Source: Candidatus Aphodovivens avistercoris
Lineage (GTDB): Bacteria > Actinomycetota > Coriobacteriia > Coriobacteriales > Eggerthellaceae
Length of the DNA stretch: 64,000 bases
Assembly (NCBI GenBank): GCA_018710945.1
Contig: DVIW01000006.1
Span: 1 to 64,000 of the forward strand
Direction: 5' to 3'
Part shown: in pieces, positions 15,111 through 38,289 of the stretch
Position numbering within the stretch: the first letter of the stretch is position 1
How the letters are laid out: each line of letters starts with the position of its first letter
Notes under the pieces: generated by a model
What the model saw: the letters and a program-made list of their open reading frames with translations, nothing else
What the model was told of the DNA's origin: nothing
Database searches by the model: none
Program-made: the position numbers and the translations under genes

Positions 15111-16814
15111 ATGGGTGCTGCGGGCATCGTCGGCGTGTTCAAGCCGAACGTGGCCTCGCTGGGCTATGCGCTGTTTTTGGCCGTCAACGCCACCGGGGTG
15201 TGGGGCGGCGTGTTCCCCTTCCTGCCGCTCGATTTCCAAACGCCCACCATCCTGCTGGGGTTCTTCCTGGCGCAGTCGGTCACCTTCTTCGCCTGCTTTT
15301 TGGCAAGCGCGCTGGGCTCCTACTTCCTGCCCGGGCCCACCAAGCGCCTCTCGGCGGTGCTGGCGGGCGCGCCCTACCTGGCAGGCTGGTGCTGCCTCAT
15401 CGCCGCCATCTACCTGGACGCCCTTGCGCTGCCGCTCGTCGCGGCCGGCGGAGCGCTTCTGGGGCTGGGCTCTGCGGGCTTCTACATGCTGTGGCAACGT
15501 CTGTTCGCCAGCCGCGACGCCGACGCCGGCAACCGCGACCTCATCGTGGGCACCGCCTACGCCGCCGTGTTCTACTTCGCGCTGTACCTGGTGCCGCGCG
15601 CGGTGACGGCCTTCCTCATCCCGCTGGTGTTCATGCCGCTGTTCGGGCTGGCCATCGTCGTGCAAAGCCGCACGGTGGACCGCGACCAGCCCATGTTCCA
15701 AGACGTGCCGCGCGAGCACCCGCACGTGTACCGCCAGGTCATCCGCGACTACTGGCGCAGCGCGCTTTCCGTGGGGGCGCTGGGGTTCTGCGCCGGCGTC
15801 ATGCGCTCGCTGGCTTTGGGCGAGGTGCAGATGGGCACGATGGTCAACGCGCTGTCGATGGCCGGCGCGCTGGCCATGGCCGCCGCGATGCTGGTGTTGT
15901 GGCGGTTCAAGGGCCTGCACGTGAACGTGGTGTCGGCGTACCGCTTCTTCTTCCCCTTCGTCATCACGTCGTTTCTGCTGCTGCCGTTTCTGCCGCCCGA
16001 CTACGAGCGGTGGCTGGCGGCCATCCTCTACGCGCTGTACAGCGCCGCCATCGTGCTGATGATGGTGCAGTGCGCCCAAGCGGCGCGCGACGGCGGCATC
16101 AACCCGGTGTTCGTCTACGGCCTGTTCGGCAGCGTGGTGTACGCCCTGCACGACCTGGGTTTCTTCGGCGGCACGTTCGCGGAGGGGCTGAACGTGCTGG
16201 GCATGGCGCCGCTGGCCGTGGTGGCGCTGGTGGCGGTGTATCTGCTGGGCATGATGTACTTTGTGGGCCAGGGCGGGCTGCGGCGCGTTCTGGGCTTCGA
16301 CGAGCGCGACACGAGCATCGAGCTGGTGGCGCTGCAGCCGGTTGCCGCGGCGCGCCCAGCAGGCGCGAAGCGGCCGGGGACGGCCGATGCGCGGCAGCCG
16401 GGAGCGGCGGGCGGGCAGACGCAGGATGCGGAAGGCGCCGGCGCGGAACCTGCGGAAACGGCGCGGAGGGACGGTGGCGCAGCGGCAGGCAGCGCGGGCG
16501 CAGGCGCGAACGGCGACGCGGCACGGGGCGGCACGGGCGCCGAACGCGCGGCAGCCGGCGGCGCGCCGGGCTACCCTGATCGCTTGGCAGCCCAGGCCGA
16601 CCGGGTGCGGAGCCGCTACCGCCTGTCGGCGCGCGAGGCCGAGGTGATGGAGCTCATCGCGCGCGGCAACACCGTCGCGCGCATCGCCGAGCTGCTGGTG
16701 GTGTCCGAGAACACCATCCGCACCCATTCGAAGCGCATTTACGCGAAGCTGGGCGTGCACAAGCGCCAAGAGCTGCGCGACCTCATCGAAGCGACCGACC
16801 TCGACGACGCGTAG
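15111..16814 (+). CDS. membrane-embedded LuxR-family one-component regulator
   Basis: Protein of 567 residues: about twelve hydrophobic helices in the first 390 residues, an Ala/Gly-rich acidic linker (about 400-495), then a LuxR-type helix-turn-helix (YRLSAREAEVMELIARGNTV, then VSENTIRTHSKRIYAKLG). This layout, an MFS-like sensor domain joined to LuxR, is common next to respiratory enzymes in Eggerthellaceae. It would sense a substrate or redox cue in or across the membrane and act on DNA from there. The start at 15111 has GGAGGGAGG upstream. Its divergent partner is the dmsABC-like operon, its probable target. Confidence 0.88.
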   Translation: MGAAGIVGVFKPNVASLGYALFLAVNATGVWGGVFPFLPLDFQTPTILLGFFLAQSVTFFACFLASALGSYFLPGPTKRLSAVLAGAPYLAGWCCLIAAIYLDALALPLVAAGGALLGLGSAGFYMLWQRLFASRDADAGNRDLIVGTAYAAVFYFALYLVPRAVTAFLIPLVFMPLFGLAIVVQSRTVDRDQPMFQDVPREHPHVYRQVIRDYWRSALSVGALGFCAGVMRSLALGEVQMGTMVNALSMAGALAMAAAMLVLWRFKGLHVNVVSAYRFFFPFVITSFLLLPFLPPDYERWLAAILYALYSAAIVLMMVQCAQAARDGGINPVFVYGLFGSVVYALHDLGFFGGTFAEGLNVLGMAPLAVVALVAVYLLGMMYFVGQGGLRRVLGFDERDTSIELVALQPVAAARPAGAKRPGTADARQPGAAGGQTQDAEGAGAEPAETARRDGGAAAGSAGAGANGDAARGGTGAERAAAGGAPGYPDRLAAQADRVRSRYRLSAREAEVMELIARGNTVARIAELLVVSENTIRTHSKRIYAKLGVHKRQELRDLIEATDLDDA

Positions 16815-17191
16815 CGCGTGGGCGCCGCTTCGCGGGCCGCGCTGCGCGCAATGCCGAACGACGCCCGCGCACATGCCGTCGCGCAGCCGCCCCCGCCATC
16901 ACCCGCGCGCGGCGAACGCACCCGGTCGGGCCCCGGCGGCAGCCATCTGTTCGCCAAAACGAATAGATGAAGGAGCAAACGGCCCGAAACGGGTCGGCAA
17001 CGCAACCTATCCGCCGCATGCACCGCCAATTTAGGCGGCAAACGGCAGATGCCCCCAGCCGCCGTTTCCTCTACGATGGCCTTCGAAGCGGAGCGCGGTG
17101 AGCATGGCCCGGTTCCGCAGCCAAGGCCCATCCAGCTGGCCATGCCGGGCGTGCAGCCCGAAGCGCCGACGCCTCCAAGGGGATAACGACG
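16815..17191 (+). promoter_or_regulatory. 377-bp control region upstream of the first giant surface protein
   Basis: Contains copy A of the duplicated regulatory block (16933-17078) and, beyond it, a leader of roughly 110 bases to the ATG at 17192. Dyads CCGCC-AATTTA-GGCGG are visible near 17026-17041. No gene is supported here. Confidence 0.6.
16933..17078 (+). repeat. copy A of a ~146-bp duplicated promoter/regulatory block
   Basis: The first 31 bp (16933-16963, ending CGCCAAAACGAA) are identical to 21092-21122. A second conserved segment (AACGGCAG at 17041, then TTTCCT and a TACGAT -10-like box at 17072-17077) matches 21200-21237 at exactly the same 108-bp offset. The sequence between them is partly alike (caaacggcccgaaacgg versus ccaacggcgcaaaacgg). 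Fixed spacing at both ends argues for a conserved multi-site promoter with several protein contacts. Confidence 0.8.
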
Positions 17192-20100
17192 ATGACGCGC
17201 TCAGAATCGACCGCCCGCGCCTTCAAGGCGATCCTCGCCGTGCTGGCCGCAGCCCTTATCGCAACCGCTTTCGCCTTCGCCGCTCGCGCCTGGGCGACAG
17301 AGGATGGCCAGGCCGCAGCACAGGCGGAAGGCGCCGGCTCCGAGGACGCCGAAACCGGCGGCGTGGGCGGATCGTGGCACGACTGGAACCCCGATCCCGG
17401 CGACACGGTCAACATCTCGGACGCAAACTGGAACACCACGATCACCTTCTCCAAGCCGGGCACTTACCGCCTCACCGGGAGCAGCACAAACGTGTGCGTC
17501 GTGGTGGATCCAGGACAGGGCGAGGAGATCACCCTGATGCTCGCCGACGGACTGCGCATCGATCCGGGCATCTCGGCCAACGTAGGCGTCCGAGCATCGG
17601 CGATCGAGATCGTCGAGCGCGACGAAGCCACCGTAAGGCTCGTCTCGGAGGCGGGCGCGAGCTCATACTTCGGCAGCTACCTGCTGGCCCCGGCCATCCG
17701 CAAGTCGGGCACGCAAACCCAGCTCGTCTTCGAAACCGCAAATTCGAGCAATCCCGGCACCATCACCGCGCGCTCGAGCAACACGAGCTTGAGCGCCGGC
17801 ATCGGCACGGTCCCCTATGCGGCCCTTTCCAACCCCGCCCCTGCGGGCAACATGGTGTTCAGCAGCGGCAAAGTCGTGGCGGAAGGCGGCCTTGGCGGCG
17901 CGGGCATCGGCGGCGGAAACAACTGCGGCGCAAAGCTCATCTCGATCACCGGCGGCGAGGTCATAGCCACAGGCGGCGGTGCGGGCATCGGCGGCGGCGC
18001 GGGCGGCGGGGCGAGCAACATCACCATTTCGGGCGGCACCATCACGGCCACCGGCAGCGGCGGCGCGGGCATCGGCAGCGGGAGCATGGCCTCCAACCGC
18101 AACAAATCCTTCGCTGACTGGATCTCCATCAGCGGCGGCACCGTCACCGCCACCTCCACCTACGAGAACGGCAGCGGCATCGGAGCGGGAGACTTCCTCG
18201 TGCGCACCGACTACATCTACGTCTACGGCGGAACGGTAACCGCCAAGGGCGGCAACGGTGAGCATTCGGCGGGAATCGGAGGGGGCTACCCCGACACATA
18301 CGACGCCCCCTCCTCCGGCGTCACCAGCATCAAAATATACGGCGGGGTCATCGACGCCGAGGGCAGCGCGGTTGGAATCGGCACCGTTAGCGACAAGGGA
18401 GATGCAGGATTGACCAGCATCTCCATCTACGGCGGAACCATCAAGGCGAACGGCATGTATTCCAACGTCGACATCGGAGACGCCACCCATAGCAGCAGCG
18501 GCACCGTGATGATCTGCGGCGGGTCGATCGATTGCGACAGCATCGCAGGTCGGGTCACCGATTCGCAGGCGTGCGAGATAAGGCGAACCGTCGTCCAGCT
18601 CGAAGGCGCCGACGAAGGCGTGCGCGTAACCAGCTTGGATGTTTCCCGCGCCTCCGGGGCGGGCCTGCATAGGCCCTTCGGCGCAAATGACGTGCTGACG
18701 TCCGAAGACGGCAAGCTGTACCTGTGGATATGCTCGAAATCGACCGTCGTGGGGGCAACGGACGAGAACTTGGAAGTCTACAGCGGACGCATCCACGGCG
18801 TGAGGGACCGAGAGGGCGTGCTGCACAAACGCCCGGGGATCGTGCTGGATAAGAACGGCGGCAACGCCAACGGCAGCGCCAACGCCGTATCGCTCGCCGG
18901 TTCGTTGGACATCCTCTCCGCGCCCACCGGCCCCGACGGCTGGACGATCGGCGGGTACGGAACCACCCCCAACCCCACCGACGAGGGCGCGCGCAAGGTG
19001 GCGAACGCCGACGGCAGCCTGCTCATCAACGTGGACGGGTACACCGACGAGAACGGCAGGTGGATCTACCAGAAGACGAGCTCGGATCAGCTGAGGCTCT
19101 ACACCTGGTGGTACAAGCCGCACTACTACGTCGCCTACAACGCCAACGTCCCCGACACGGCGAGCACGCAGGCGAGCGGCAGGATGACCGCGCAAAACGT
19201 TGCGGTCGATGCGACGTTCAACCTCAAGGAGAACGGGTACAGCCTGCCCGGGTACACGTTCGCGGGATGGAACACGGCGGCGGACGGCAGCGGCGCCAAC
19301 TACGCTGCGGGACAGGAGGTTTCGAACCTCGCCACCGACGACGGGGCAACCGTCGTCCTGTACGCGCAATGGAAGCCGCTGGGTTATGAGGTGACGCTGC
19401 GCATCGAGGATCCCGATAGCGGATCCGCCTCCATCCAAACCATCGACGCCAAGTTCGACCAGCAGTTCGCCCTCTCGTGGAACGGGGCGGTTCCCGGCGG
19501 CGGAGCGATCGTGGGTTGGAGCGGGCTCGCGCTCGGGTCCTTCTACCCCGACGGAACCTCGGCGACGAACCTTTGCACGCTCAACGAAGACGGAACGGTT
19601 ACGGGAGGCGCTACGTTCGACGCAGTGGTCGCCCAGGAAGGTTGCGCCTACCTCTCGGTCACGAACGACGGAGACGGCGTCTTCCTGGATCCGTCAGCCA
19701 TCACGCTGACGCAAGAGGGCGGGGCGACGTTCGCTGGGCAGTTCTCCGAATCCGGAACGCCGGGCCTCTACATCGCCCGGGGCGTTAGGGAAGGAACCTA
19801 TGCCGTTTCCATCATCGACTGGAATACCCGGGGCAAGGCTATCGAGATCGATTCCGCTGGCAACGGGACGCTGTCGCTCGAGTATTTCACCGTGACGGCG
19901 GCGGCAGACGACAACGCGAGCGCCTGGATCGTCGATCCGGCGGATCCCGGCGCGCGCGTCGGCTCTGTCGAGAAGCGCATGGCGGGCGACACGGTGACGA
20001 TCGGCGCCTCGGCGGACGAGGGCTACGCGTTCGAGAGCTGGACGGCAGGGGGCATCGCCCCGACTTGGGGCGGCGATCCGTCTCAGGCGAGCCAGACCGT

Positions 20101-21082
20101 AACGCTCAACGGGGCCGTCTCCCTAGAGGCGCACGCTGCGGCCAACGTCTACCACGTGAAGTTCGAGGCGAATGGCGGCGCGGGCACGATGGAGACGCAG
20201 GACATGGTCTACGGGGAACCCCAGGAGCTCTTCGCCAACGCGTTCTCCCGCGACGGGTACGACTTCGCCGGGTGGACGACCACACCGGAGTGGACGGGAG
20301 CGCTCTATGCCGATCTTCAAGAAGTCCAAAACCTCACCTCGGAGGACGGCGGCATGGTGACGCTCTACGCGCAGTGGAGTCCGTGGCCCTACGAAGTGCT
20401 CTTCCTTCCCAACGGCGCAGGTGGGGAAGCCGCCATGCCACCCCAGGTTATCTACCACGACGCCGAGACGGAGCTTGCACCCAACGAGTTCACCTGGGCG
20501 GATCACGGCTTCCTCGGTTGGAACACCGAGGCCGACGGCAGCGGGCAATGGTACGCCGACGGCGAGACGGTCGCCAACCTCTCCGTCGAGAGGTGGGGAC
20601 AGGTGGTTCTCTACGCCCAATGGGAGCATGACTCCTACACGGTTGAATACAACGCCAACGGAGGCACCGGCGAAATGGAGCCCCAGACCGTGCTGACCAA
20701 CTTCGGCGAGATACTGCGCTCGTGCACGTTCTCCCGCGAGGGGTACGAGTTCGCGGGTTGGAGCACCACGCCCGACGGGAGCGGAACAACCTACCAGCCC
20801 GGCGAGCAGATTTGGGACGACCTCGCGGAAGCCGGCGAGACCGTGACCCTCTACGCGCAGTGGAACGAGATCCCCGGCCCTTCGCCCGACCCCGATCCGA
20901 ATCCCGACCCATCGCCCGATCCGGATCAAGGGAACGGAAACGGCTCCGACGACCCCGGGGCAGCCAAGCCCCTCCCCCGTGCCGGCGACGCTGCAGTGCC
21001 CTTGGCAGCGGCCGTCGCAGCTGCTGCGATCGCCGCCGGAGCAGGCGCCGTCGGCGCCTGGCGCAAAAAGAGGGACGCCTGA
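17192..21082 (+). CDS. giant surface protein 1: beta-helix repeats plus InlB-type repeats, LPRAG sorting signal
   Basis: Secreted protein of 1296 residues. A Sec signal peptide covers about residues 1-36 (hydrophobic core, AWA/TE cleavage). Residues about 100-480 hold repeats of the SGGTVTA / GAGIGGG kind, like carbohydrate-binding parallel beta-helix proteins. At least four InlB-B (Listeria-Bacteroides) repeats, each ending LYAQW, lie near residues 647-730, 987-1065, 1068-1145 and 1149-1226. A Pro-Asp linker precedes LPRAG (1261-1265), a hydrophobic helix and a RKKR tail: a sortase-type cell-wall signal. The role is probably adhesion to glycans or host surfaces. Its promoter carries copy A of the duplicated block. 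The module at 730-1065 recurs in giant protein 3. Confidence 0.85.
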   Translation: MTRSESTARAFKAILAVLAAALIATAFAFAARAWATEDGQAAAQAEGAGSEDAETGGVGGSWHDWNPDPGDTVNISDANWNTTITFSKPGTYRLTGSSTNVCVVVDPGQGEEITLMLADGLRIDPGISANVGVRASAIEIVERDEATVRLVSEAGASSYFGSYLLAPAIRKSGTQTQLVFETANSSNPGTITARSSNTSLSAGIGTVPYAALSNPAPAGNMVFSSGKVVAEGGLGGAGIGGGNNCGAKLISITGGEVIATGGGAGIGGGAGGGASNITISGGTITATGSGGAGIGSGSMASNRNKSFADWISISGGTVTATSTYENGSGIGAGDFLVRTDYIYVYGGTVTAKGGNGEHSAGIGGGYPDTYDAPSSGVTSIKIYGGVIDAEGSAVGIGTVSDKGDAGLTSISIYGGTIKANGMYSNVDIGDATHSSSGTVMICGGSIDCDSIAGRVTDSQACEIRRTVVQLEGADEGVRVTSLDVSRASGAGLHRPFGANDVLTSEDGKLYLWICSKSTVVGATDENLEVYSGRIHGVRDREGVLHKRPGIVLDKNGGNANGSANAVSLAGSLDILSAPTGPDGWTIGGYGTTPNPTDEGARKVANADGSLLINVDGYTDENGRWIYQKTSSDQLRLYTWWYKPHYYVAYNANVPDTASTQASGRMTAQNVAVDATFNLKENGYSLPGYTFAGWNTAADGSGANYAAGQEVSNLATDDGATVVLYAQWKPLGYEVTLRIEDPDSGSASIQTIDAKFDQQFALSWNGAVPGGGAIVGWSGLALGSFYPDGTSATNLCTLNEDGTVTGGATFDAVVAQEGCAYLSVTNDGDGVFLDPSAITLTQEGGATFAGQFSESGTPGLYIARGVREGTYAVSIIDWNTRGKAIEIDSAGNGTLSLEYFTVTAAADDNASAWIVDPADPGARVGSVEKRMAGDTVTIGASADEGYAFESWTAGGIAPTWGGDPSQASQTVTLNGAVSLEAHAAANVYHVKFEANGGAGTMETQDMVYGEPQELFANAFSRDGYDFAGWTTTPEWTGALYADLQEVQNLTSEDGGMVTLYAQWSPWPYEVLFLPNGAGGEAAMPPQVIYHDAETELAPNEFTWADHGFLGWNTEADGSGQWYADGETVANLSVERWGQVVLYAQWEHDSYTVEYNANGGTGEMEPQTVLTNFGEILRSCTFSREGYEFAGWSTTPDGSGTTYQPGEQIWDDLAEAGETVTLYAQWNEIPGPSPDPDPNPDPSPDPDQGNGNGSDDPGAAKPLPRAGDAAVPLAAAVAAAAIAAGAGAVGAWRKKRDA

Positions 21083-21091
21083 TCGGGGCCT

Positions 21092-21237
21092 CCGGCGGCA
21101 GCCATCTGTTCGCCAAAACGAACACATTGCGCAACCAACGGCGCAAAACGGACGTTCAGCGAGGTCGAAGCCGTATCGGCATCGCCGTTTTGACGGGAAA
21201 ACGGCAGGTATCCGCACGGTAGGTTTCCTTTACGATG
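21092..21237 (+). repeat. copy B of the ~146-bp duplicated promoter/regulatory block
   Basis: Matches copy A (16933-17078): the first 31 bp are identical and the distal AACGGCAG...TTTCCTTTACGATG segment is conserved at the same offset. The TACGAT -10-like box (21231-21236) is only 28 bp from the start codon of giant protein 2, fitting a short leader. A perfect 8-bp dyad GCCGTTTT-GACGGG-AAAACGGC lies at about 21184-21205. Confidence 0.8.
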
Positions 21238-21263
21238 CTTGGAGAACGAAAGGAGGCCACCCT

Positions 21264-24200
21264 ATGACCGATCGCGAGCCCAGCCGCCCCAACGCCCCCG
21301 CACCCGGTTCCATCCGCGCAACCTCCCCCGATCGCGCTTCGGCCCCGCGGGCGCTCACGCGACGCTCCTTCCTGATGGGTGGAGGAGCCACCGTCGCCGC
21401 CATCATGCTGCCCTGCCTGGGCGTCTTCAACGGCAAGCGCGCCTACGCGCTCGACCCGGATGCCAAATCCGACGGCGGCGACCCCACCACTCAGTTCGTC
21501 GTGCTTTCCGCCAACGAGATAGGCCTGGCGGTATACGATGTGGACGCTCAGGGCAAAAACGCCCCAGTGCCAGGAGCGAAAGTGGTCATCACCGCCGCAA
21601 GCGACTCGTCCCAGCGACTTGAGGCCGTAGCCGACAACCTGGGCGCCGTGGTGTTCGACATCCGCAGCTTGGGAGCCACTGTCGACTTAGGACCCGATGG
21701 CGTGCGCTACCGTTTCGAGGGATCGGTCACCGTGTCCAACGGCAATGGCTATCGCATCTGCACGCTCACCAAAATCCGTGTGGATTCCGGCACGGCGATG
21801 GCGTTGCCCTGCTGCAAGATCGACGACCCCTCCATCCCCTACTTCGAATACCTGTCGTTCAACGGTTGGGACATGCAGTACTGCGACTGCGAGGCGCTGC
21901 GCACCGGAGCCGCCTACAACCCCGTCCCCATCACAGGCAAGCTGCACATGGCGGGCACGCAGGCCGTGGAGGTGTCGTTCTGGGCGCGCACGACCGACGA
22001 TGCGCGCAAGCTCGACGGCAAAGCGCTTTTCACGACGACCGTCAACGTGAAGGGCGGCTCGGGGACGTTCAAACGCAGCGACCTGTTCTTGAAGCTGGAG
22101 CCGCCCTCCGACGCACTTCTGCCCAAAGACCGCAGCTTCGAAGTGCACGTGAAGGCGGGCGGCACCACCTACGTGTTCCCGACGAAGCTTTCCGCGCACG
22201 ATTCGCCGATACCGTTCAAGACGGGCAACGCCAACGTGGTGCCGGAGGTGTCTTTCGGGCAAGCGGGCTCGTCGGCGAACATCTTCACGCTGCCGTCGTC
22301 GTTCCCGGCGGTGCTAAGGGGCTCGAGCCTCACCTGCTGGGTACCCACCTTCCCCCTCCAGTTCTACCTAAACCCGCTTGGATACTTCTTTCTGGGGGGC
22401 GGAATCTGCATCTCCAAGGAAGGCCAAGGCATCGAGGGGTTCAAGCAGGAAGGCTTCGCGAACGAGACCCGCAAGAGCTTCGACCAGCAATTCGGCGAGC
22501 TCGTGGAACGCTGGAACAGCAAGTACGACGCGTACCAAAACATGCGGAGGGGAACCAACCCCGGCACCACGAACAAATTCGGCCATCAGTTCTCCAGCAA
22601 AATCGGCATATCGTTCGCGCTCCAAGCCTACATCTCGGCGCAGTGCAACGTCCTAGAAAACCCAAGCGACATGAAATTCACCGGCGTCATGGCGGCCATC
22701 GTCGACGCCTACGCGTTCGCCCACCTGTGCCAGCAGTTCACCATCGGGCCGGTTCCCTTCTTCATCGCGCTCAACATCTCACTCGATACGCGGCTGTTGT
22801 CCCTCTACGCCTCCTGCGAGTCCCCGGCGGGAGACCCCCTCAAGATCAGCCTCGTTCCCTCGGCAACCGGCGCGGCGGTCGTAGCCACCTTCGCCATATC
22901 GCCAAGCATAGGCCTCGGACTGGACGGCGTGCTGGCGGTGTCGCTGTGCGGAACCGGCCAGATATCCACCTACATCGGCCTGATCTCATGCGAAACGACG
23001 CTATCGAGCCCGCGACACGTCGTGGTGAGCGCATCGCTTTCCCTCGACCTGGTGCTTCAGGCGCTTATATTCAAATGGAGCGGCAACATCTGGTCGGAGG
23101 ACTGGCCCCGGCTCTACGACAACTGGAAGGCCGACGGCAACGATGCGATCGAAGGCACCTCGATAGCGTCCTGCCCGACCCATCTGGCGCTCGGAGTCGA
23201 TACCGACGGCAAGGGCATCTACTCCAACGAAGAGCCCGCAGCCCTTGCCGCAGCAGCCGCCAACGGCGACGAGGTCATCTCTCTTGCGGAGTTTGGAAAG
23301 CTTGCCACCATCGTCACCTCCGACGAGCTGCTGAGGACGAAGGAGGCGACGGCGACGGCGGTCGCCGGGTTCCAAGCCGCGCCTGCTTCCGACCCCGTGG
23401 AGATCGGCGGCGGCCTGCACGCCACCCCGATGAGCGTCGCCGACCTTGATGCCGAGGACGCCCTTGGCGAAGGCGCCGACGGCTACCAATATGCGGATGC
23501 CGGCGAGGATCCCGCAGGCGTCTGCAACGGCATCGCCGCCGTGGGCGGGATCGCGGAGGCAGGCGGCGTGCTGCCGGATAAAGACGTCAGGATCATCAGC
23601 AAGTCGTTCAGCAATCCGCGCGAGAAGGTCGTCGTCTACAACGGCGCGACCATCCTATTCAGGCTCGCGAACGTCGAATACGAAGTGAACGGCGCGCACG
23701 TGGGTCGCCCGCGTCTGGTCGCCCAGGTCTACAACGATGCAACGGGGCACTGGGGCCGCCCGAAAGTGCTCGACATTCCCGTCACGGTTCCGAATATCGA
23801 TCGCGCCGATATGTTCGACTGCGATTTCGACGTGAGCATGCAGACTAATTCGAATCCCTCTTCGCATCTGTACCAAGGAATCTACGTGAGCCTGGTAAGC
23901 ACCCTGCGCCAGAACGGGGATGGCACCTCGTTCTTCAGCGCCGCCTGCGCCCCGGTGCTCACGGTTGCCGTGTTCAACCGCGACCTGCGCCGTCTGTCCT
24001 CGGTCATGTGGCGCGACGCCCCGGATGCCACGCAGGCAGGCGCCTATGCGATCACCTGCCCGCGCGTGACGACGGTCGAGCGCAACGGCAACCCCTTCTG
24101 CATCGCGATGGCGTACCTGCGCCACGCCGCCGGCAACACGCAGGACGTATTCGGCTCAAACGCGAGCACCACCTGCTGCATCGCCATACCCATGGCGGCC

Positions 24201-25727
24201 AACCTCGTCCATGCCTCCAGCCTCCAGGTCGCGCCCACGACAAGCAATCTGACCATTTCGAGCATCAAGTCGGCTCCCGCGCAAACCGACGACGATACGG
24301 CGTCCGCCGCGTTCAGCCTGTACTTCACCGCGGGAGGAACGCTGAGCATCACCTCGGTCACCCTAACCATAGATCCTCAGCTTGCAGCCGCTGGGCCCGA
24401 AGACGAGCTGGATGCACTGAAACAAATCGCCATCGAGTTTTCGTTCACCAACAACATCAGCGGCGTGGAAGGCGTCACCGGCATGCAGCCTTGGCCCGGG
24501 CGCTCGTCGTTCCTCATGCTTTCAAACGGGGACTTGACGGAATGCTCGTTCGATCCCTCAGTCACGGACGGGACGCTCTCCAGGCGCACCGTGGGCCCCT
24601 CGCGCGCCAAGCTAAGCGCGTTTCGGATCAGCGACAACGGCAACGTGCTGTTCTTCACCGAGAACAAGGAGGGTAAAAGCGGGCAGAACTTCGACGATGC
24701 GGGCGAACCCACCGACGCTCAAACCGAAACGCGCCACCGCATCATGGCGAGCATCTACGTTGACGGACTGTTCTCCGAACCGTTCGTTCTGGGGCAGACC
24801 GCGCACGCGCTCGACTCCATCGCCGGAGTGTCGGGGCACAGCAGTTACACGTTCATCACCTCCAGCATCATAGACATGGCCAGCAGCATGGCGGACATGT
24901 ACTACGTGGACATCCCCATCGTCGCCACAGCGACGACGCTGGGCTTCGCGGCGGAAAGCGTCTTCACCCTTCAAGGCGAGGAAGCCTCGTTCACCTTGGT
25001 GCTGCGCAACGACGGCAACGTCATCCTAACAGGCTGCCGGGCGACGCTGGTCGATGCGGACACCGGCGAAAATGCGGACAGCGTCCTGCTGAGCTTCGCA
25101 GCCGAGAACCTGTGCGCCTCGGCGTGGAACCCCGAGCTTTTCGACGACACCACCGAAGAGGACATCGCCGCAACCAAGGCGTACACCGACGATGCGGTGG
25201 CAGCGGCGCTGGAAGCAGCCGGCATCGAAGGAACCCACCTGCTTGCAGACCCCGCTGAAGCCGGCGTGCTTCTCCCAGGAAAAACCGCACAGTACCGGGT
25301 TACGTTCACGGTACCGGCCAACTGGCATGGCACGAAGAACGTCTACGCCGCTCTGAGCGAGTTCAGCTACAAGACAGTCGTATCGGCGGCACCCGACGGC
25401 GAGGAGGTGCGCCCGCTTGACCACCAGGCACCCAGCGACGATCTCCCGCGCGCCGAGTTTGCCGTGCAGGCGAGCGACGAACCCTTCGACCCCGGGCTGA
25501 GCGCGCCGACAATCGGGGTTGTCACAGACGACGGAAACGAGACCCCTTCCGAGGGCGGCGAAGACGGCACGGGCACTTTGGCGGGGCTTGCCACCACTGG
25601 CGACGGCACGGGGCTGGGCATGCTCGGGCTTGCGGCGGGCGCAGCAGCGGCGGCGTTCACCGCGTACAGCGCCCGGCGGACGGCGCTGGCGCGCGAGAGG
25701 AAGGACGCGCCCGACGACAGGCCATGA
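21264..25727 (+). CDS. giant surface protein 2: twin-arginine leader and LATTG sorting signal
   Basis: Protein of 1487 residues whose function I do not recognise. The leader has TRRSFLMGGG (RR at 33-34) and a hydrophobic core ending near AYALD, a Tat signal, unlike the Sec-type leaders of its two neighbours. Residues about 75-150 look like an Ig/CnaB-like fold (PVPGAKVVITA...). The C-terminal third includes a fold with FTLVLRNDGNVILTGC, as in extracellular domain repeats. LATTG (1442-1446), a hydrophobic helix and a basic tail form a class-E-like sortase signal. The start at 21264 has AAGGAGG upstream; the longer frame back to 20979 would overlap protein 1. It is followed after 90 bp by giant protein 3, possibly co-transcribed. 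Confidence 0.8.
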   Translation: MTDREPSRPNAPAPGSIRATSPDRASAPRALTRRSFLMGGGATVAAIMLPCLGVFNGKRAYALDPDAKSDGGDPTTQFVVLSANEIGLAVYDVDAQGKNAPVPGAKVVITAASDSSQRLEAVADNLGAVVFDIRSLGATVDLGPDGVRYRFEGSVTVSNGNGYRICTLTKIRVDSGTAMALPCCKIDDPSIPYFEYLSFNGWDMQYCDCEALRTGAAYNPVPITGKLHMAGTQAVEVSFWARTTDDARKLDGKALFTTTVNVKGGSGTFKRSDLFLKLEPPSDALLPKDRSFEVHVKAGGTTYVFPTKLSAHDSPIPFKTGNANVVPEVSFGQAGSSANIFTLPSSFPAVLRGSSLTCWVPTFPLQFYLNPLGYFFLGGGICISKEGQGIEGFKQEGFANETRKSFDQQFGELVERWNSKYDAYQNMRRGTNPGTTNKFGHQFSSKIGISFALQAYISAQCNVLENPSDMKFTGVMAAIVDAYAFAHLCQQFTIGPVPFFIALNISLDTRLLSLYASCESPAGDPLKISLVPSATGAAVVATFAISPSIGLGLDGVLAVSLCGTGQISTYIGLISCETTLSSPRHVVVSASLSLDLVLQALIFKWSGNIWSEDWPRLYDNWKADGNDAIEGTSIASCPTHLALGVDTDGKGIYSNEEPAALAAAAANGDEVISLAEFGKLATIVTSDELLRTKEATATAVAGFQAAPASDPVEIGGGLHATPMSVADLDAEDALGEGADGYQYADAGEDPAGVCNGIAAVGGIAEAGGVLPDKDVRIISKSFSNPREKVVVYNGATILFRLANVEYEVNGAHVGRPRLVAQVYNDATGHWGRPKVLDIPVTVPNIDRADMFDCDFDVSMQTNSNPSSHLYQGIYVSLVSTLRQNGDGTSFFSAACAPVLTVAVFNRDLRRLSSVMWRDAPDATQAGAYAITCPRVTTVERNGNPFCIAMAYLRHAAGNTQDVFGSNASTTCCIAIPMAANLVHASSLQVAPTTSNLTISSIKSAPAQTDDDTASAAFSLYFTAGGTLSITSVTLTIDPQLAAAGPEDELDALKQIAIEFSFTNNISGVEGVTGMQPWPGRSSFLMLSNGDLTECSFDPSVTDGTLSRRTVGPSRAKLSAFRISDNGNVLFFTENKEGKSGQNFDDAGEPTDAQTETRHRIMASIYVDGLFSEPFVLGQTAHALDSIAGVSGHSSYTFITSSIIDMASSMADMYYVDIPIVATATTLGFAAESVFTLQGEEASFTLVLRNDGNVILTGCRATLVDADTGENADSVLLSFAAENLCASAWNPELFDDTTEEDIAATKAYTDDAVAAALEAAGIEGTHLLADPAEAGVLLPGKTAQYRVTFTVPANWHGTKNVYAALSEFSYKTVVSAAPDGEEVRPLDHQAPSDDLPRAEFAVQASDEPFDPGLSAPTIGVVTDDGNETPSEGGEDGTGTLAGLATTGDGTGLGMLGLAAGAAAAAFTAYSARRTALARERKDAPDDRP

Positions 25728-25817
25728 CCGGCACCGCTGCACGGCGCGCGCAGCAGCCCAGCACCGAAGGGCTCCGGCAACCGCACGCTGAAACGCACAC
25801 TGAAACGAGGAACGCAC

Positions 25818-28800
25818 ATGGAAACACGGAGACCAACGGCAAAGGAACCGAACGCCCTGCGGCAGCGCCTGCCCAGAAGAGCGACGGCGCTGGCACAGGG
25901 CGCAACCCTGCTCGTCGCAGCGGCGCTGCTGGCGACGATCCCCGCGCTCTTCCCCATCGGGGAAGCGAACGCCGAGCCGGACGGCAGCGCGGGGACGGCT
26001 GCCGACGGGAGCGCGTCGCCGCGCAGCACCATCGTGCTCGAGCCGGGGCAGTCCTTCGATCTGAGCTCCGCTTCCGCCGGCTCAACCGTGTTCATCAGCA
26101 GATCCGGAACCTACGAGCTGCGCGGAACCACCCAAGCGCACGTCGAAATCTATGCGCAAGGCGACTCTGAAATCACCGTGCGCCTGGCCAACGGAACAAG
26201 CGTGACCCCCGACAACAGCAACATCCCCAGCAATACGGCAGCGCTGATCATCAACGCCTACGCAGATTCTAGCGGCACCCCTCGCGTCTCCATCGTTACC
26301 GAGGAAAACGCCCAAGCGAGCCTGAAGGGGGCAAACAGGGGAAGCGGGGTCGCGGTGATGGTCGCGAACACGAACCAGTCCGCGCCGCCCACCACCGAGC
26401 CGGCGGTCTCCTTCGCCGGGGAAAGCGGCAGCACGCTGCAGGTCTCCAGCGACATGAGCACGGGCATGGCGCTGAGCTCAGCGCGCGGTCCCAACGCCAG
26501 CACCGCCGCCGTTGCCATCACCGGGGGAACCTTGGTCGCCACCGGAGACTCTCGCCCGGCGATTATCTGCGAAATTCCGCTGAAGATCATGGGCTCCGCC
26601 CGGGTGGAGGCGACCAGCGACGGAGACGTCCCCACCCCCGCCATCGGGAGCATAGCCAACAATGTCTCCTTATCGATCGAAGGCGGCTCCGTGCAGGCCA
26701 TCACGCGCAGCGATGCCCCCGGCATCGGCAGCATCGATGGAAACGCCAATATCTCCATCTCGGGAGGCTCCGTCGACTTCCGGTCCAATGGAAACAGTTT
26801 CCGCCAAGCGAACACGCCCGCCATTGGCAGCGTAGAGGGCAATGCGTCCATAAACGTGTCGGGAGGGCTCGTCCGCGCCGACGACTTGCCTTACGGCGAC
26901 CTGATCCTGGGAAGCCGCAACGGCGACGCCAACGTGCACATCTCGGGCGGCACGGTGGACGTCGGGTTCGGAGGGGCGGGCGTCCCCCGCGATAGCGACG
27001 GCAAGGGTTCGCTCTCGGTTACGGGCGGATCCTTCACCGGGTTCGCGATGACCGGCGAAAGCGAGCCGTCCGCGCACGCCACGGACGGATACGGAACCAC
27101 GGTCTACCGCACATTCGCCGCCCTTGAAAATGCCTCACCCCAAACAGCAGTCACCTCGCTCGATGTCGGCGGAGTGAGCTATGGAACCAACGACCTGCAA
27201 ACCTCGCTCATCAAATTCAAGGACGACGTGTACCTGTCGGGCGTGATGCTCTGGCTGCCGGCGAACGGCGAGGTGACAGGCGCCATCGATGAGGACGGGA
27301 ACCGCTATGCCGGTGAGGTGCACCCCACCGACCTGTCCTCGCCGCTCGATTACGGCTGGCTCTACTTGACGAGCAACCTGACGCTCAACGCCAACATCGA
27401 CACGGGCTACGACGGAAGCGCACGGGTACGCATCGGTTCGGACGAGGTCGTCGTGGAGGAAACGGTCGACCCCAACGAAGGCGGGTACACGCTGCGGGGA
27501 TTCTTCGATGAACCCGAGGGCGGCACCTTGATAATGAACGCGCAGTACCGACTTGTAGCGAACGTCAAGGACTGGACCGATGGCGCAGGGCGCTGGGCAC
27601 GGACGGACGGCCCGTTCATCCTGTACGCGCAATGGGAGCGTACATACACGGTAGCGTTCGACGCGAACGCGCCTCGGACGGCTAGCACGACGGTTTCAGG
27701 CTCGATGGCGAACATCGAACCGGCTGTGGGAACGACGCAAAAACTAACCGCATGCGGCTTTACCCTGCCGGGATATGCGTTCGCGGGCTGGAACACCGCA
27801 CCCGACGGCACGGGAACGGCGTACGAGGACGGCGCCGAGGTGCTTGACCTCGCCGAAGGCGGCGAGACCGTGACCCTCTATGCCCAATGGGAGCCGCTTT
27901 CCTACACGGTGTCGTTCGAAGGCGGACAAGGCGCCAGCGGCCAGATGGCAGCGCAAACGCTCGTATTCGACCGCTCCGCCCCGCTCGAAGCCAACGCGTT
28001 CTCCGCCCCGACGGGCGCCGTCTTCTTGAGCTGGCGCGACGACGTAACGGGGAAGCTGTACTCCGACCAAGCGCAGGCGGTGAACCTTTGCGAGATCAAC
28101 GAAGACGGAAGCCTTGCCGGGCGCGCGTTGACCGCGCAGTGGGCCAACAACGCCGTCACGCTGACCATCACGCGCGACAGCGCACCTGTGACGCTCGACA
28201 GCCCGGAAGATTCGATCGAGCTCATCCCCGAAGCCGGCGGAACCCCGGTCGATGGGTTTTCCGCCGATGACGGCAGTCCTGGAACGTACTTCCTTGAGAA
28301 CATCGAACCCGGCACCTACGGCATTAACATCAACAACGGAGGCGATGCCGGCGGCGCACTGCCAACTGGCGGAATGACGGTGGCCGTGGAAGCCGGCGCC
28401 CCCGCCGCACTGTCCCTCGAATACGCAACCGTCGAAGCCGAAACGCAAGGTGGCGGGATCGCCGCATGGATCAGCGGCCCCGGCGTTACCAAACGCGTTG
28501 TGCGCGTAGGGGACACGGTGAGTGCCAGCTGCGGCGCCGACGCCGCCAACGGCTACGTGTTCGACGGCTGGAGCTGCCAAGGAGTCGCGCCCTCGGGATT
28601 CGACGCAGGCTCCCAGGACCTGGCGGGCATGACGATCAACGGGCCGGTCACGCTTACCGCCCATTCCCGCCCCGCCGCCTACACCGTCGCCTTCGACGCC
28701 AACGGCGGCGAAGGCCAGATGGCGGATCAGGAGATGACCTGCCACGAGACGTGCGCGCTCGACCCCTGCGCGTTTCGACGGGACGGCTACGCTTTCGCCG

Positions 28801-30398
28801 GCTGGAACACGGCAGCGGACGGCAGCGGGACGTTCTACGCCGACAGCGCCGAGGTGGCCGACCTCGCCCTGACCGACGGCGCCGCCGTAACGCTGTACGC
28901 GCAGTGGGCGGCGCGCTACACGGTGGCCTTCGACGCCAACGCGCCGGAGGATGCAAGCACGTCCGTTACGGGATCGACCTCCGCGCTTTCGATGATCGCC
29001 GGACAGCCGAGCAACCTGCCCGCATGCGGCTTCGCCCTGCCGGGATACCGGTTCGCAGGCTGGAACACCGCCGCCGACGGCAGCGGGGATGCCTATGCCG
29101 ACGGCGCCAAGGTGGTCGACCTTTCCACCGAAGCCAAGGCGACGGTGACGCTCTACGCCCAATGGAAGCCGCGTTCCTACACGGTCGAGCTGCTCTTGGC
29201 GGGCGATGACGGAACGATGACCCTTTTGCGCAGCATCGATGCGACGTTCGACGAACCGCTTACCCTGCCGGACGAAGCGGAGGGGATTCCCGACGGCAGG
29301 GTGCTGCTGGGATGGGAGACGCTGGGGTTCGGGTCGTTCTACCGCGCGGGATCGCAGGCGGCCAACCTCTGCACGCTTGGCGCCGACGGCACGCCCGTCG
29401 GCACCAAGCTCTACGCGCGCCTTGGCAGCGCGGAAGCGTTCTACCTGGTCATGGAGAACGACGGCTCCCCCGTCGTTCTCGAGGATCCCGCAAGCGAAAT
29501 CGAACTGGTTTCCGGATCGGGCACCTCGTTCATCGGGGGTTTCACGATGGTCGAGCCCGGCATCTACAGCATAAGCAGCATCCCGCCGGGCGCTTATTCC
29601 CTGGCGATCGAAGGATGGAGCACCGAAGGCGAAGCCGCCATCGTCGGGGAAGACGGCGGCGGCAGGATCGTGCTTGCGTACTGCACCGTGGAGGCGGCGG
29701 CGGAGAAGCACGCCGAGGCCTGGCTCGTCGATCCCGCGACCGGCGAGCCCGTAGACCGGGTCGAGCGGGTGCCGATTGGTTCCGCGATAGAGATAGGAGC
29801 GTCGGCGGAGACGGGCTACGCGTTCGAAAGCTGGACGGCCATCGGAGCGGCCCCCGCATGGGAGAACGACGATCCCTCGCAGGCAAGCCAGACGATCACA
29901 GCGAACGGGCGCGTGCTCTTGGAAGCGCACCCTGCGGCGAACCGCTACCAGGTGCTTTTCGATGCGAACGGCGGCACGGGAACGATGGAGCCGCAGGATA
30001 TGGTGTACGGCGAACCGCAGCGTCTTTTCGATTGTGCATTCGTTCGCGAAGGTTTCTCCTTCGCCGGATGGAACACCGAAGCGGACGGCAGCGGAACCGC
30101 TTACGCCGACGGCGCCGAGGCGATCAACCTCTCCGCAGAAGACGGAGCGACCGTGACGCTGTACGCGCAGTGGACCGCAAGCCCGGCGCCCGGCCCCGAT
30201 CCGGATCCCGATCCCGACCCGGACCCCACGCCGGACGATCCGGACGATAACGCGACGGACGGCCAGGAGACGGCGGCCAAGCGGCTTGCGGGCACCGGCG
30301 ACGCAGCCGCGCCCTTGGCAGCAACCGCCGTCGCGGCCGCGATCGCCGCAGGCACGGGCAGCGCCTACGCCTGGTGCAGAAGGAGAAGAGACCGCTAA
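25818..30398 (+). CDS. giant surface protein 3: beta-helix repeats plus InlB-type repeats, LAGTG sorting signal
   Basis: Secreted protein of 1526 residues with a Sec signal peptide (about 1-53, ending GEANA/EP). Residues about 90-420 contain beta-helix-like repeats (NISISGGSV, NVHISGGTV). InlB-B repeats lie at about 609-694, 695-778, 954-1030, 1033-1115 and 1376-1452, most ending LYAQW. A Pro-Asp linker leads to LAGTG (1490-1494), a hydrophobic helix and CRRRRDR, a LAXTG-type sorting signal as used by class E sortases. A ~330-residue module (about 1117-1451) closely follows residues 730-1065 of giant protein 1, and a more diverged copy lies at 695-1030. The start has GAGGAACGCAC upstream. Probable surface adhesin; paralog of protein 1. 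Confidence 0.85.
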   Translation: METRRPTAKEPNALRQRLPRRATALAQGATLLVAAALLATIPALFPIGEANAEPDGSAGTAADGSASPRSTIVLEPGQSFDLSSASAGSTVFISRSGTYELRGTTQAHVEIYAQGDSEITVRLANGTSVTPDNSNIPSNTAALIINAYADSSGTPRVSIVTEENAQASLKGANRGSGVAVMVANTNQSAPPTTEPAVSFAGESGSTLQVSSDMSTGMALSSARGPNASTAAVAITGGTLVATGDSRPAIICEIPLKIMGSARVEATSDGDVPTPAIGSIANNVSLSIEGGSVQAITRSDAPGIGSIDGNANISISGGSVDFRSNGNSFRQANTPAIGSVEGNASINVSGGLVRADDLPYGDLILGSRNGDANVHISGGTVDVGFGGAGVPRDSDGKGSLSVTGGSFTGFAMTGESEPSAHATDGYGTTVYRTFAALENASPQTAVTSLDVGGVSYGTNDLQTSLIKFKDDVYLSGVMLWLPANGEVTGAIDEDGNRYAGEVHPTDLSSPLDYGWLYLTSNLTLNANIDTGYDGSARVRIGSDEVVVEETVDPNEGGYTLRGFFDEPEGGTLIMNAQYRLVANVKDWTDGAGRWARTDGPFILYAQWERTYTVAFDANAPRTASTTVSGSMANIEPAVGTTQKLTACGFTLPGYAFAGWNTAPDGTGTAYEDGAEVLDLAEGGETVTLYAQWEPLSYTVSFEGGQGASGQMAAQTLVFDRSAPLEANAFSAPTGAVFLSWRDDVTGKLYSDQAQAVNLCEINEDGSLAGRALTAQWANNAVTLTITRDSAPVTLDSPEDSIELIPEAGGTPVDGFSADDGSPGTYFLENIEPGTYGININNGGDAGGALPTGGMTVAVEAGAPAALSLEYATVEAETQGGGIAAWISGPGVTKRVVRVGDTVSASCGADAANGYVFDGWSCQGVAPSGFDAGSQDLAGMTINGPVTLTAHSRPAAYTVAFDANGGEGQMADQEMTCHETCALDPCAFRRDGYAFAGWNTAADGSGTFYADSAEVADLALTDGAAVTLYAQWAARYTVAFDANAPEDASTSVTGSTSALSMIAGQPSNLPACGFALPGYRFAGWNTAADGSGDAYADGAKVVDLSTEAKATVTLYAQWKPRSYTVELLLAGDDGTMTLLRSIDATFDEPLTLPDEAEGIPDGRVLLGWETLGFGSFYRAGSQAANLCTLGADGTPVGTKLYARLGSAEAFYLVMENDGSPVVLEDPASEIELVSGSGTSFIGGFTMVEPGIYSISSIPPGAYSLAIEGWSTEGEAAIVGEDGGGRIVLAYCTVEAAAEKHAEAWLVDPATGEPVDRVERVPIGSAIEIGASAETGYAFESWTAIGAAPAWENDDPSQASQTITANGRVLLEAHPAANRYQVLFDANGGTGTMEPQDMVYGEPQRLFDCAFVREGFSFAGWNTEADGSGTAYADGAEAINLSAEDGATVTLYAQWTASPAPGPDPDPDPDPDPTPDDPDDNATDGQETAAKRLAGTGDAAAPLAATAVAAAIAAGTGSAYAWCRRRRDR

Positions 30399-30425
30399 GC
30401 CGTGCGAAGCCGTCCTGGCCGCGCC

Positions 30426-30459
30426 TTGACCGAGCGTTTCCCGCCGAAACGAATACAAT
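30426..30459 (+). promoter_or_regulatory. promoter of the dual-HTH regulator with a third copy of the core motif
   Basis: CGCCGAAACGAATA (30442-30455) differs in one base from CGCCAAAACGAATA in copy A (16952-16965) and in two from copy B. It overlaps a TACAAT -10-like box (30454-30459); TTGACC at 30426-30431 is a -35 candidate although the spacing (22 bp) is long. A shared operator for the downstream regulator, including autoregulation, is inferred. Confidence 0.5.
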
Positions 30460-30494
30460 TGATCTGCTGGATTCAACAGAGGGGAGAACACGCG

Positions 30495-31850
30495 ATGGAC
30501 TACGCGAGCACGCGCGAGACCGCTGCGGCTTGGAACGTGTCGGAGCGGCTCGTCCAGCGCCTGTGCGCCGAAGGGCGCATTCCCGGCGCACGCAAGGTCG
30601 GCGGCTCTTGGATCGTGCCTGAAGATGCAGAAAAACCCGGCGACCAGCGCAAGCGCACCGCCGTCGCGCTCCATCCAGAAAACGGCACCGCATCCGAAAG
30701 CGGCGACCTCGGCCCCGATGCCCTTGAAAACGCAAACGGCAACCGCTTCGAGCGACGGCCTTGCCCCCGAACCCTTGACACCGACACGCCGGATCCCCTC
30801 CCCGCTTCCGCCGTCCCCAAGCGCACCGACGGCGCGGCCGACGAAGCGCGCATCTTCGGCCGGCTTATGCCCCTCTTGAACACGTCCTTCGCTCCTGGAA
30901 CATGCCAGGCCGCCATCGAAAGCTTCGACGACCCCGGCATGCGCGCCGTCGCCCGCGCCGAGTACTTCTACTTCAGCGGCCAGGCGGAAGAGGCGGTCCA
31001 CGCCGCAAGCGAGCTGCTCTCCCACGACGATCTGGCGGTGCGCCTTTCCTCCTGCCTGATCTACACCTACGCCAACCTTCCCTTGGGCAACATCAACAGC
31101 GCGCGGTTCGCGCTGGCCGAGCTGCGCCTGGCGCTGGAAGCCAACGCTTCTTCGCAGTCCTCCGAAATCCGCGCGGCAGAGGCGTTCGTCGGCTCTGCGG
31201 CCTCCGTGCTGCTGCATCTGCCCCTGCCCGACAACGCGCCTCCCGTCGAGACCTTCCTTCCGCTGCTTCCCGTCGGTCTGCGGTCGTTCGCCCTGTACGT
31301 GCGGGCGCACCAGATGTACCTGCAGGGCGACTACGCGCACAGCCTGGGACTGGTGGAGTCCGCGCTGTTGATGGGCGCGACCGACTACCCCATCCCCCAG
31401 ATCTACCTGCGCATGGTGGCGGTGATGGACTGCATGAGCCTCAAGCAAGCCGACGATGCGCGAAGGCATCTGCTCGCCGCCTGGGACCTCGGCCGGCCCG
31501 ACGGCCTGATCGAGGCGTTCGGAGAGCATCATGGGCTTTTGGGAGGGATGCTGGAATCGGTCATCAAGAAGGAATGGCCCGAGGATTTCAAGCGGATCAT
31601 CGACATCACCTACCGGTTCTCGGCGGGATGGCGGCGCATACACAACCCCGCCACCGAGGAAACGATCGCCGACAACCTCACCACCACCGAGTTCGCGGTG
31701 TCGATGCTCGCCGCGCGCAAATGGACCAACCGCGAGATCGCCGCGCATCTTTCAGTGTCGGAAAGCACCGTGAAGGGGCATCTTGCCTCCGCCTTCCGCA
31801 AGCTGGACATCAGAAAGCGGCGGGAGCTGGGAAAGTTCATGCTGCGCTGA
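30495..31850 (+). CDS. regulator with excisionase-type HTH at the N terminus and LuxR HTH at the C terminus
   Basis: Protein of 451 residues. Residues about 3-48 (TRETAAAWNVSERLVQRLCA then GRIPGARKVGGSWIV) form a MerR/excisionase-like helix-turn-helix (HTH_17). A charged linker follows, then about 250 residues of helical, TPR-like sequence rich in Ala and Leu. Residues about 390-450 form a LuxR-type HTH (MLAARKWTNREIAAHLSVSE, then TVKGHLASAFRKLDIRKRRE). No transmembrane segment is visible. The start at 30495 has GAGGGGAGAA upstream. It lies 96 bp after giant protein 3, in the same direction, and its promoter shares a motif with those of proteins 1 and 2, so it likely controls the surface-protein locus. 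Confidence 0.85.
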   Translation: MDYASTRETAAAWNVSERLVQRLCAEGRIPGARKVGGSWIVPEDAEKPGDQRKRTAVALHPENGTASESGDLGPDALENANGNRFERRPCPRTLDTDTPDPLPASAVPKRTDGAADEARIFGRLMPLLNTSFAPGTCQAAIESFDDPGMRAVARAEYFYFSGQAEEAVHAASELLSHDDLAVRLSSCLIYTYANLPLGNINSARFALAELRLALEANASSQSSEIRAAEAFVGSAASVLLHLPLPDNAPPVETFLPLLPVGLRSFALYVRAHQMYLQGDYAHSLGLVESALLMGATDYPIPQIYLRMVAVMDCMSLKQADDARRHLLAAWDLGRPDGLIEAFGEHHGLLGGMLESVIKKEWPEDFKRIIDITYRFSAGWRRIHNPATEETIADNLTTTEFAVSMLAARKWTNREIAAHLSVSESTVKGHLASAFRKLDIRKRRELGKFMLR

Positions 31851-36844: not shown

Positions 36845-37738
36845 CTACACCAGCGGCACCACGATGGTCACGGGAACCGCCGCCGCCACGATCAGGAAGC
36901 GGAGCAAGAAGCCGCCCACCAGCACGCCGGCGTCAGAGAAGAAGCTGATCCAGTGCGCCTTGCGGCTCTCCTCGAACTCCTTCGGGCTGAAGAACAGAAG
37001 CCAGGTCTCAAGCACGGTGGGAAGCACCAGGCCGATGAGCACCAGGCCAATCCAGAACCACAGCGCCCACTCGCCGGCCACCAGGCTCATGATGGAAGCG
37101 TTGCCCGCGAAGCCGGTCTGCGCGGTGATGAAGCACAGCGAGGCCACCAGCACCAGCTCGATGATGGGCAGGCAGAAGTGGAACTTCTTCAGCACGCCCA
37201 CGCGGATGAACTCGTCGGCGTGGCGCACCACGGCTACCATCAGCACCGACGCCGCGCCGGAGGACAGCGCCGACACCACGAACAGGATGGGCAGCAGCGC
37301 GTTGTTCCACAGCGGGTAGGTCTGGCACACGCCCAGCAGCGCACCCGTGTAGATAGCCACGCACACCGCCAGCACCACGCCGGCGATCTCAAGCCAGTTG
37401 GGTATGGCGCGCTTCATGCGGTCCAGGATGAACGCCACGATGGCCACCACCATGAACAGGCCCAGGAACACCACGCCCCACATCATCACGGAGCCGGGGT
37501 TCATCAGCAGGTAGAAGAAGCGGATGGGGTTGTGCAGGCCCGCTTCGGCGTCCACCATCAGAAGGACCAGGCCAACGGCTACCGCCAGCGGGGCGATGAT
37601 GCGGCCCATCTTCTGCATGGACGTGGCCTCAGGATGGCGCCAGCCCAGAAACGCGGAGGTGATGAACGCGCCCGCGCCCAGGCCCGCAAGGAACAGGTAC
37701 CACGAGATGATGGGACCCCAGATGGGTTCGAACGTCAT
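36845..37738 (-). CDS. NrfD/PsrC-type membrane subunit
   Basis: Membrane protein of 297 residues with about eight helices of the NrfD/PsrC family, the quinol-handling anchor of polysulfide/thiosulfate-reductase-type complexes. Marks: IISWYLFLAGLGAGAFITSA at the N terminus and NPGSVMMWGVVFLGLF. The start at 37738 has GAGGTGATTCC upstream and lies 5 bp after the stop of the ferredoxin subunit. It completes a TorD-A-B-C operon and is followed by a terminator. Unlike the first operon, which uses DmsC, this one uses NrfD, so the two respiratory enzymes draw electrons through different anchor families. Confidence 0.9.
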   Translation of the reverse strand: MTFEPIWGPIISWYLFLAGLGAGAFITSAFLGWRHPEATSMQKMGRIIAPLAVAVGLVLLMVDAEAGLHNPIRFFYLLMNPGSVMMWGVVFLGLFMVVAIVAFILDRMKRAIPNWLEIAGVVLAVCVAIYTGALLGVCQTYPLWNNALLPILFVVSALSSGAASVLMVAVVRHADEFIRVGVLKKFHFCLPIIELVLVASLCFITAQTGFAGNASIMSLVAGEWALWFWIGLVLIGLVLPTVLETWLLFFSPKEFEESRKAHWISFFSDAGVLVGGFLLRFLIVAAAVPVTIVVPLV

Positions 37739-37743
37739 AGGAA

Positions 37744-38289
37744 TCACCTCACGTAGAAGATCTTGGCCGTCGTCAGATCGCCTGCGATGGGCAGCGCGTT
37801 CTTCTCGACGATGGCGCGGGACAGCTCGCAGTCGGGGTCGTCCAGGTCGCCGAAGATGCGGCACCCGGTCACGCACGCGGTCACGCACGTGTTCGACGGG
37901 GTCTCAGGATGCTCGTAGACCCAGTGGTGGCAGAACTTGCACTTCTCCACGGCGCCCGACACCTTGTTGTGCACGCGCACCTGGTAGGGGCACGCGGCCA
38001 TGCAGTAGCGGCAGCCGATGCACTTGCTCTCGTCCACCGTCACCACGCCGCCCTCGCCGATGGCGGAAGCGCCCGTGGGGCACACGCTCACGCAGGGGGC
38101 GTCCTCGCAGTGCATGCACTGCAGCGGCACGCTCTCGTGGCGCACGTTGGGCAGGGTGCCCGTCTCGCGCTCTTCGTAGCGGATGTAGTCCACCTCGGCA
38201 TCCAGGCCGTTTTGGCGCTGGCACGCGGTGCGGCAGGCGTAGCAGCCGATGCAGTTGGTGGTATCTATCAGCATTCCGTAGCGGGTCAT
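37744..38289 (-). CDS. PsrB/NrfC-type [4Fe-4S] subunit
   Basis: Protein of 181 residues with four cysteine clusters: CIGCYACRTAC, CMHCEDAPCVSVCP, CIGCRYCMAACP and CKFCHHWVY...CVTAC, the standard set for four [4Fe-4S] centres. It carries electrons between the NrfD anchor and the molybdenum subunit. Its ATG overlaps the A-subunit stop (TAATG, 38289), so the two are translationally coupled. No export signal of its own. Confidence 0.92.
   Translation of the reverse strand: MTRYGMLIDTTNCIGCYACRTACQRQNGLDAEVDYIRYEERETGTLPNVRHESVPLQCMHCEDAPCVSVCPTGASAIGEGGVVTVDESKCIGCRYCMAACPYQVRVHNKVSGAVEKCKFCHHWVYEHPETPSNTCVTACVTGCRIFGDLDDPDCELSRAIVEKNALPIAGDLTTAKIFYVR

Follow-up and report, generated by a model that had tools for sequence, protein, structure and literature searches.

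In MalT, the LuxR-type STAND regulator of maltose genes, maltotriose is the ligand of domain III. The RRNPP peptide sensors (NprR, PlcR, Rap) offer a second arrangement in which a helix-turn-helix (HTH) domain is joined to a TPR solenoid, with Rap lacking the HTH. In the Coriobacteriia, LuxR regulators with 10-12 transmembrane (TM) segments, namely DadR, HcdR and CadR, are encoded beside the gene that they activate (PMC9734109). Gut bacteria have many giant surface proteins, yet only for a few of these is the control known; sortase-anchored fibrillar adhesins combine a signal peptide, a stalk of InlB/Flg_new repeats and a C-terminal anchor (PMC9210967). Fibrillar adhesins with a linked regulator and two-site control were not described in the literature that we found.

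The locus analyzed here lies in a 64,000-nucleotide stretch (the window) of a 2.45 Mb assembly from the Eggerthellaceae. As the original prediction had it, three giant genes run in one direction, and their ORFs have the predicted sizes: P1 (17192-21082, + strand, 1296 aa), P2 (21264-25727, +, 1487 aa) and P3 (25818-30398, +, 1526 aa), the last starting 90 nt past P2. The next gene, which we call REG (30495-31850, +; 451 aa counted from its ATG), was said to encode a regulator with two distinct HTH domains, and Pfam agrees, placing an excisionase/MerR-type HTH_17 at residues 5-44 and a LuxR HTH (GerE, 8e-9) at 394-445; GerE was matched in all 11 A1 members. We found no published description of REG among open-licence papers.

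An AlphaFold model of REG built from 77 sequences (pLDDT 85.5) consists of a winged HTH (1-48), a disordered linker (60-113), a solenoid (115-383) and the C-terminal LuxR HTH. The solenoid is most similar to MalT domain III (1hz4; Z 19.6, rmsd 4.0 over 242 residues, 16% identity), whereas the next structures, generic TPR proteins, score Z 13.5, and PlcR and NprR about 12. REG thus resembles MalT in having a domain III-like TPR superhelix with a LuxR HTH behind it. The STAND ATPase half is absent from REG, however (no ATPase family was among its Pfam or NCBIfam matches), and for this reason we do not class it as a MalT member; in place of that half it has the winged HTH and the disordered linker, and it further differs from MalT in that its targets would be surface proteins and its predicted sites are palindromes. 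With the RRNPP proteins it shares an HTH and a TPR solenoid, but the HTH is HTH_17 rather than Xre, the solenoid is clearly nearer to MalT domain III, and no peptide gene came to light. Like DadR, HcdR and CadR it has a LuxR HTH and is encoded beside its putative target, but it differs in its sensor, in having a second HTH and in lacking transmembrane segments (zero hydrophobic segments). REG is probably a cytoplasmic regulator in which the TPR solenoid acts as the ligand sensor.

The surface proteins were predicted to end in a sorting motif, a helix and a basic tail, and all three do: after LPRAGDA in P1, LATTGDG in P2 and LAGTGDA in P3 there are a hydrophobic stretch and basic residues, with the tail helix of P3 weakly hydrophobic and the hydrophobic ends of P1 at residues 13-31 and 1269-1287. 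InlB-type and beta-helix repeats were recovered as well, since Pfam finds InlB/Flg_new repeats in P1 and P3 and a beta-helix repeat in P1, along with a match to Cthe_2159 below threshold in the N-terminal part of P1. P1 and P3 are InlB-repeat proteins, and we predict that both are secreted. P2 has a twin-arginine (Tat-type) signal, RRSF. None of its Pfam matches reached the threshold, and a profile search of the PDB gave no relative; the AlphaFold model of P2, made from three sequences, has a pLDDT of 28.7, and the P2 family is sparse, with proteins of about 1,300-1,600 aa in the Coriobacteriia. The locus shares with the described fibrillar adhesins (PMC9210967) the signal peptide, the stalk repeats and the C-terminal anchor, but P2 belongs to no described family.

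The export signals and LPXTG-like tails are those of sortase-anchored surface proteins, and a search for a class E or related sortase elsewhere in the genome had been suggested. The source genome encodes two sortases, on contigs other than that of P1-REG, and both are class B-like. One (280 aa, contig C8) adjoins genes that by eye resemble purine-synthesis genes, and the other (257 aa, contig C11) adjoins a 1363-aa surface-like protein and genes resembling a conjugative element. Further sortase-type proteins of this genome end in LASTGD (L192 498-9197) and LAKTGD (L194 4426-5457), which supports LAxTGD as its usual sorting motif.

Upstream of P1, P2 and REG we recognized a TTCG-N6-CGAA palindrome, site A, which reads TTCG-CCAAAA-CGAA before both P1 (16950..16963, +) and P2 (21109..21122, +); the same palindrome is found upstream of REG in relatives. 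A second palindrome of the type CCCGTTTT, site B, precedes P1 and P2 only (CCGCCAATTTAGGCGGCAAACGGCAG at 17023..17048, + and TCGCCGTTTTGACGGGAAAACGGCAG at 21182..21207, +), in each case 79 bp from site A, centre-to-centre, and followed after exactly 23 nt by the predicted -10 box TACGAT (17072..17077, + and 21231..21236, +). The REG promoter (30438..30459, +) has a degenerate site A, TTCCCGCCGAAACGAA, that abuts a -10 box, TACAAT, at 30454-30459, and has no site B. The promoters of P1 and P2 had been described as copies of one block of about 146 bp. The repeat itself is real, with a 24-nt core (CAGCCATCTGTTCGCCAAAACGAA) present in two exact copies against 0 in 100 shuffles, and within the source genome the block occurs in these two copies only, at 83% identity over 60 nt. 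No uniform 146-bp copy exists, however, and what has been kept is palindromes A and B and the TACGAT. That P1 and P2 have both sites and REG only site A accounts for the duplicated block and for the shorter version of the motif that had been noted before the regulator. The promoter sites shared by P1 and P2 argue for co-regulation; P3 has neither site upstream and is probably co-transcribed with P2.

A genome scan with a REG alignment found 273 relatives, and our REG locus statistics rest on the best 80 of these. They belong to Coriobacteriia (Slackia, Olsenella, Enorma, Collinsella, Thermophilibacter) and to gut Clostridia, with many being MAGs from chicken gut, and 14 of 15 Coriobacteriia proteins fall in one supported group of the REG tree. 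In these loci site B takes the form ACCCRTTTT, 8 or 9 nt, AACGGGTGATG, and lies mostly 5 to 50 nt past the REG stop. By a rule (score of at least 28) that was tuned on the same loci it scored, it occurs within 400 nt past the REG stop in 51 of 78 loci, compared with 3 of 705 other genes (Fisher 3e-56); about a third of the REG loci have no clear site B. The checks independent of this tuning are the background genes, the P2 promoters outside the set and the spacing to the -10 box, which is outside the score: a TANNNT follows site B at 23 nt in 32 of the 51 loci and at 24 nt in 12, so that the spacing seen in the window is kept in relatives. Of the -10 boxes at site B, 42 of 53 are TG-extended, and in place of a -35 consensus these promoters have ATGTCA, ATGGCA or GTCTCA.

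The P2 family provides one of these checks. Homologues of P2 were found in 10 of 100 relatives, and site B stands 23 or 24 nt from the -10 box before all P2 genes in the REG-linked clade: G000 (two), G002, G021, G076, G095 and Slackia, of which the Slackia and G095 genes were left out of profile building. It was not found at the P2 homologues of G081, G030, G054 and G033, the four tested in genomes lacking REG. Within the source genome, a B profile that included the window sites matched only P1, P2 and a P2 paralogue on contig C42 at E <1e-3. When the window's genus was left out, the C42 site was the top and only significant match; the window's own sites, in which GCC/GGC replaces CCC/GGG, were missed by that profile. 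The C42 paralogue of P2 (about 25% identical) lies beside a REG paralogue (both within L044 2063-7533) in which the winged HTH is missing and an in-frame TAG stands close to the start. There, a weak match to site B is also seen on the opposite strand, toward a divergent lipoprotein-like gene.

Site A, searched for as T[TGA]CG, 4 to 7 nt, CG[ACT]A, lies upstream of REG in 56 of the best 80 loci (of 273), as opposed to 29 of 387 other genes and 112 of 1600 shuffles. It abuts the -10 box in 28 loci, and in 21 of these the -35 consensus is matched at 4-5 of 6 positions. Where the HTH_17 match is absent (G021, G047 and contig C10 of G071), site A is by eye absent too and B-like sites are kept, whereas the C42 copy lacks the HTH_17 match yet keeps its site A; any link between losing the winged HTH and losing site A is only suggestive.

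We also considered what else the palindromes could be. They could also fold as RNA hairpins, so that a structured RNA is formally conceivable, although Rfam gave no family; on that ground a riboswitch or known RNA was rejected. A terminator at site B was rejected as well, as a -10 box comes next and there is no T run.

What follows REG on the same strand is usually a giant anchored surface protein, and in REG relatives that have no P2 a surface protein still comes next in most cases. A same-strand gene of at least 300 aa lies downstream in 58 of the best 80 (of 273) loci, and 40 of these genes are not cut by a contig end. An LPXTG-like or SLH end is seen in 22 of the 40 complete cases, compared with 26 of 728 genes in the background (Fisher 8e-19). 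A Pfam scan of 43 downstream genes gave InlB-type repeats (in 12 and 11 genes), SLH (5), dockerin (5), GDSL lipase (3) and Cthe_2159 (3). Some downstream genes encode non-surface proteins. At L128 and L139 REG is followed by a gene of about 1,050-1,090 aa with an end unlike that of a surface protein, and BTAD/AAA regulator domains were found in 2 of the 43 scanned genes, probably these two. Many Clostridia loci have a small gene (about 95-120 aa) between REG and the giant, with a conserved DCGSCRFYRQ...LIGVCGHE (L098-L100, L106, L107, L111, L117, L118, L121, L124, L160 and L165).

The exact gene order varies among relatives, and we abandoned the idea of a wholly conserved arrangement: REG is the last of the four genes in the window and comes first in Slackia equolifaciens (L091, L094), where it is followed by a 691-aa LPXTG protein, a P2 of 53% identity and a homologue of P3 (46%). 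In G076 the order is REG, P2 and an InlB giant of 1990 aa whose tail is putatively SLH; in G002, of the same genus as the source, P2 and P3 are on broken contigs. P2, a P3-type giant and REG thus travel together in varying order, and the conserved unit, to judge from these comparisons, is REG with an adjoining giant surface protein and sites A and B, found far beyond the Eggerthellaceae. A P1 homologue (50% identical) in the same-genus genome G001 (L199 3395-7285, -) has a site B with TATAAT 22 nt on, and G095 has site B before P2; REG was found in neither genome, so that either the link is not absolute or the assemblies are incomplete.

From the genes, the sites, their spacing and their association across two phyla, all of which can be read directly from the sequence, we infer a cis-encoded module in which REG represses its own promoter at site A and activates surface genes through site B, and we hold this to be the probable explanation of the locus. 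Palindrome A lies between the -35 and -10 boxes or just past the -10, where bound REG would hold its own promoter down. Palindrome B directly adjoins the -35 position of promoters with an extended -10 and no good -35, and from it REG, with a ligand on its solenoid, would activate transcription. This difference in setting is our main ground for proposing that REG represses at A and activates at B. In the window, P1 and the P2-P3 unit would be turned on. Their products would be exported, probably anchored in the cell wall by a class B-like sortase, and, given their domain resemblances, might serve as long fibres for glycan binding or adhesion. Of the coordinated adhesion locus originally proposed, the coordinated surface-protein part is upheld by the recurrence of the unit and by the promoter sites shared by P1 and P2, whereas adhesion comes from domain content only. 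A more specific version is conceivable but doubtful: a hitherto undescribed family of two-headed regulators, widespread in gut Actinomycetota and Bacillota, whose winged HTH reads A, limiting REG synthesis, and whose LuxR HTH reads B, switching on the giants. With 79 bp between A and B at P1 and P2, a single complex could span the two sites there by means of the flexible linker.

That REG instead represses the surface genes at B, with ligand binding relieving the block, is unlikely: polymerase can be blocked by a palindrome adjoining a promoter, and the A sites do occupy repressor positions, but B ends upstream of the -10 box at a fixed 23-24 nt, and an extended -10 with no good -35 is the usual layout for activation. 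We give slightly less credence to a reading that makes REG incidental and assigns the surface genes to the 10-12-TM LuxR gene upstream of P1 (15111-16814). Regulators of this type activate neighbouring genes in Eggerthella lenta (PMC9734109); the gene adjoins P1 in the window, a counterpart lies directly before P2 in G002, and a LuxR gene stands beside the site B-bearing P1 homologue of G001, where REG was not found. Nonetheless, a TM-LuxR-related neighbour occurs in only 1 of the best 80 REG loci (of 273), although A and B are present there, and absence from the other 79 makes such genes an unlikely common reader of site B; moreover, the window gene diverges from a Tat-exported oxidoreductase-like gene (12100-14586), the usual kind of partner. 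Common mobility alone, with no regulatory link between REG and the surface genes, is very improbable, for while the distribution is patchy and several REG copies are frame-broken, A and B are kept at fixed spacing in two phyla while the target proteins differ.

For giant surface proteins, a conserved regulator whose operator is recognizable and keeps a fixed spacing would allow regulons to be predicted from sequence in two phyla, and the ligand of its sensor domain could explain when gut bacteria change their surface.

The frame breaks in REG copies of several Coriobacteriia genomes (L083, L085, L086, L090) are at unrelated positions. Phase variation of REG was rejected, as the breaks in G071, G087 and G096 and the TAG of C42 have neither related positions nor repeats in common, which makes decay or assembly error the likelier cause.

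The LuxR regulator at 15111-16814 (+) has 567 aa and about nine hydrophobic segments. The divergent gene at 12100-14586 (-) encodes a Tat-exported, enzyme-like protein of 828 aa and is followed by ferredoxin-like and membrane genes; the pair resembles the TM-LuxR/molybdoenzyme pairs of E. lenta (PMC9734109). A second set of Tat enzyme, ferredoxin-like and membrane protein genes lies at 36845-40490 (-) in the window, with a TM-LuxR-type gene nearby at 41671-43302 (+).
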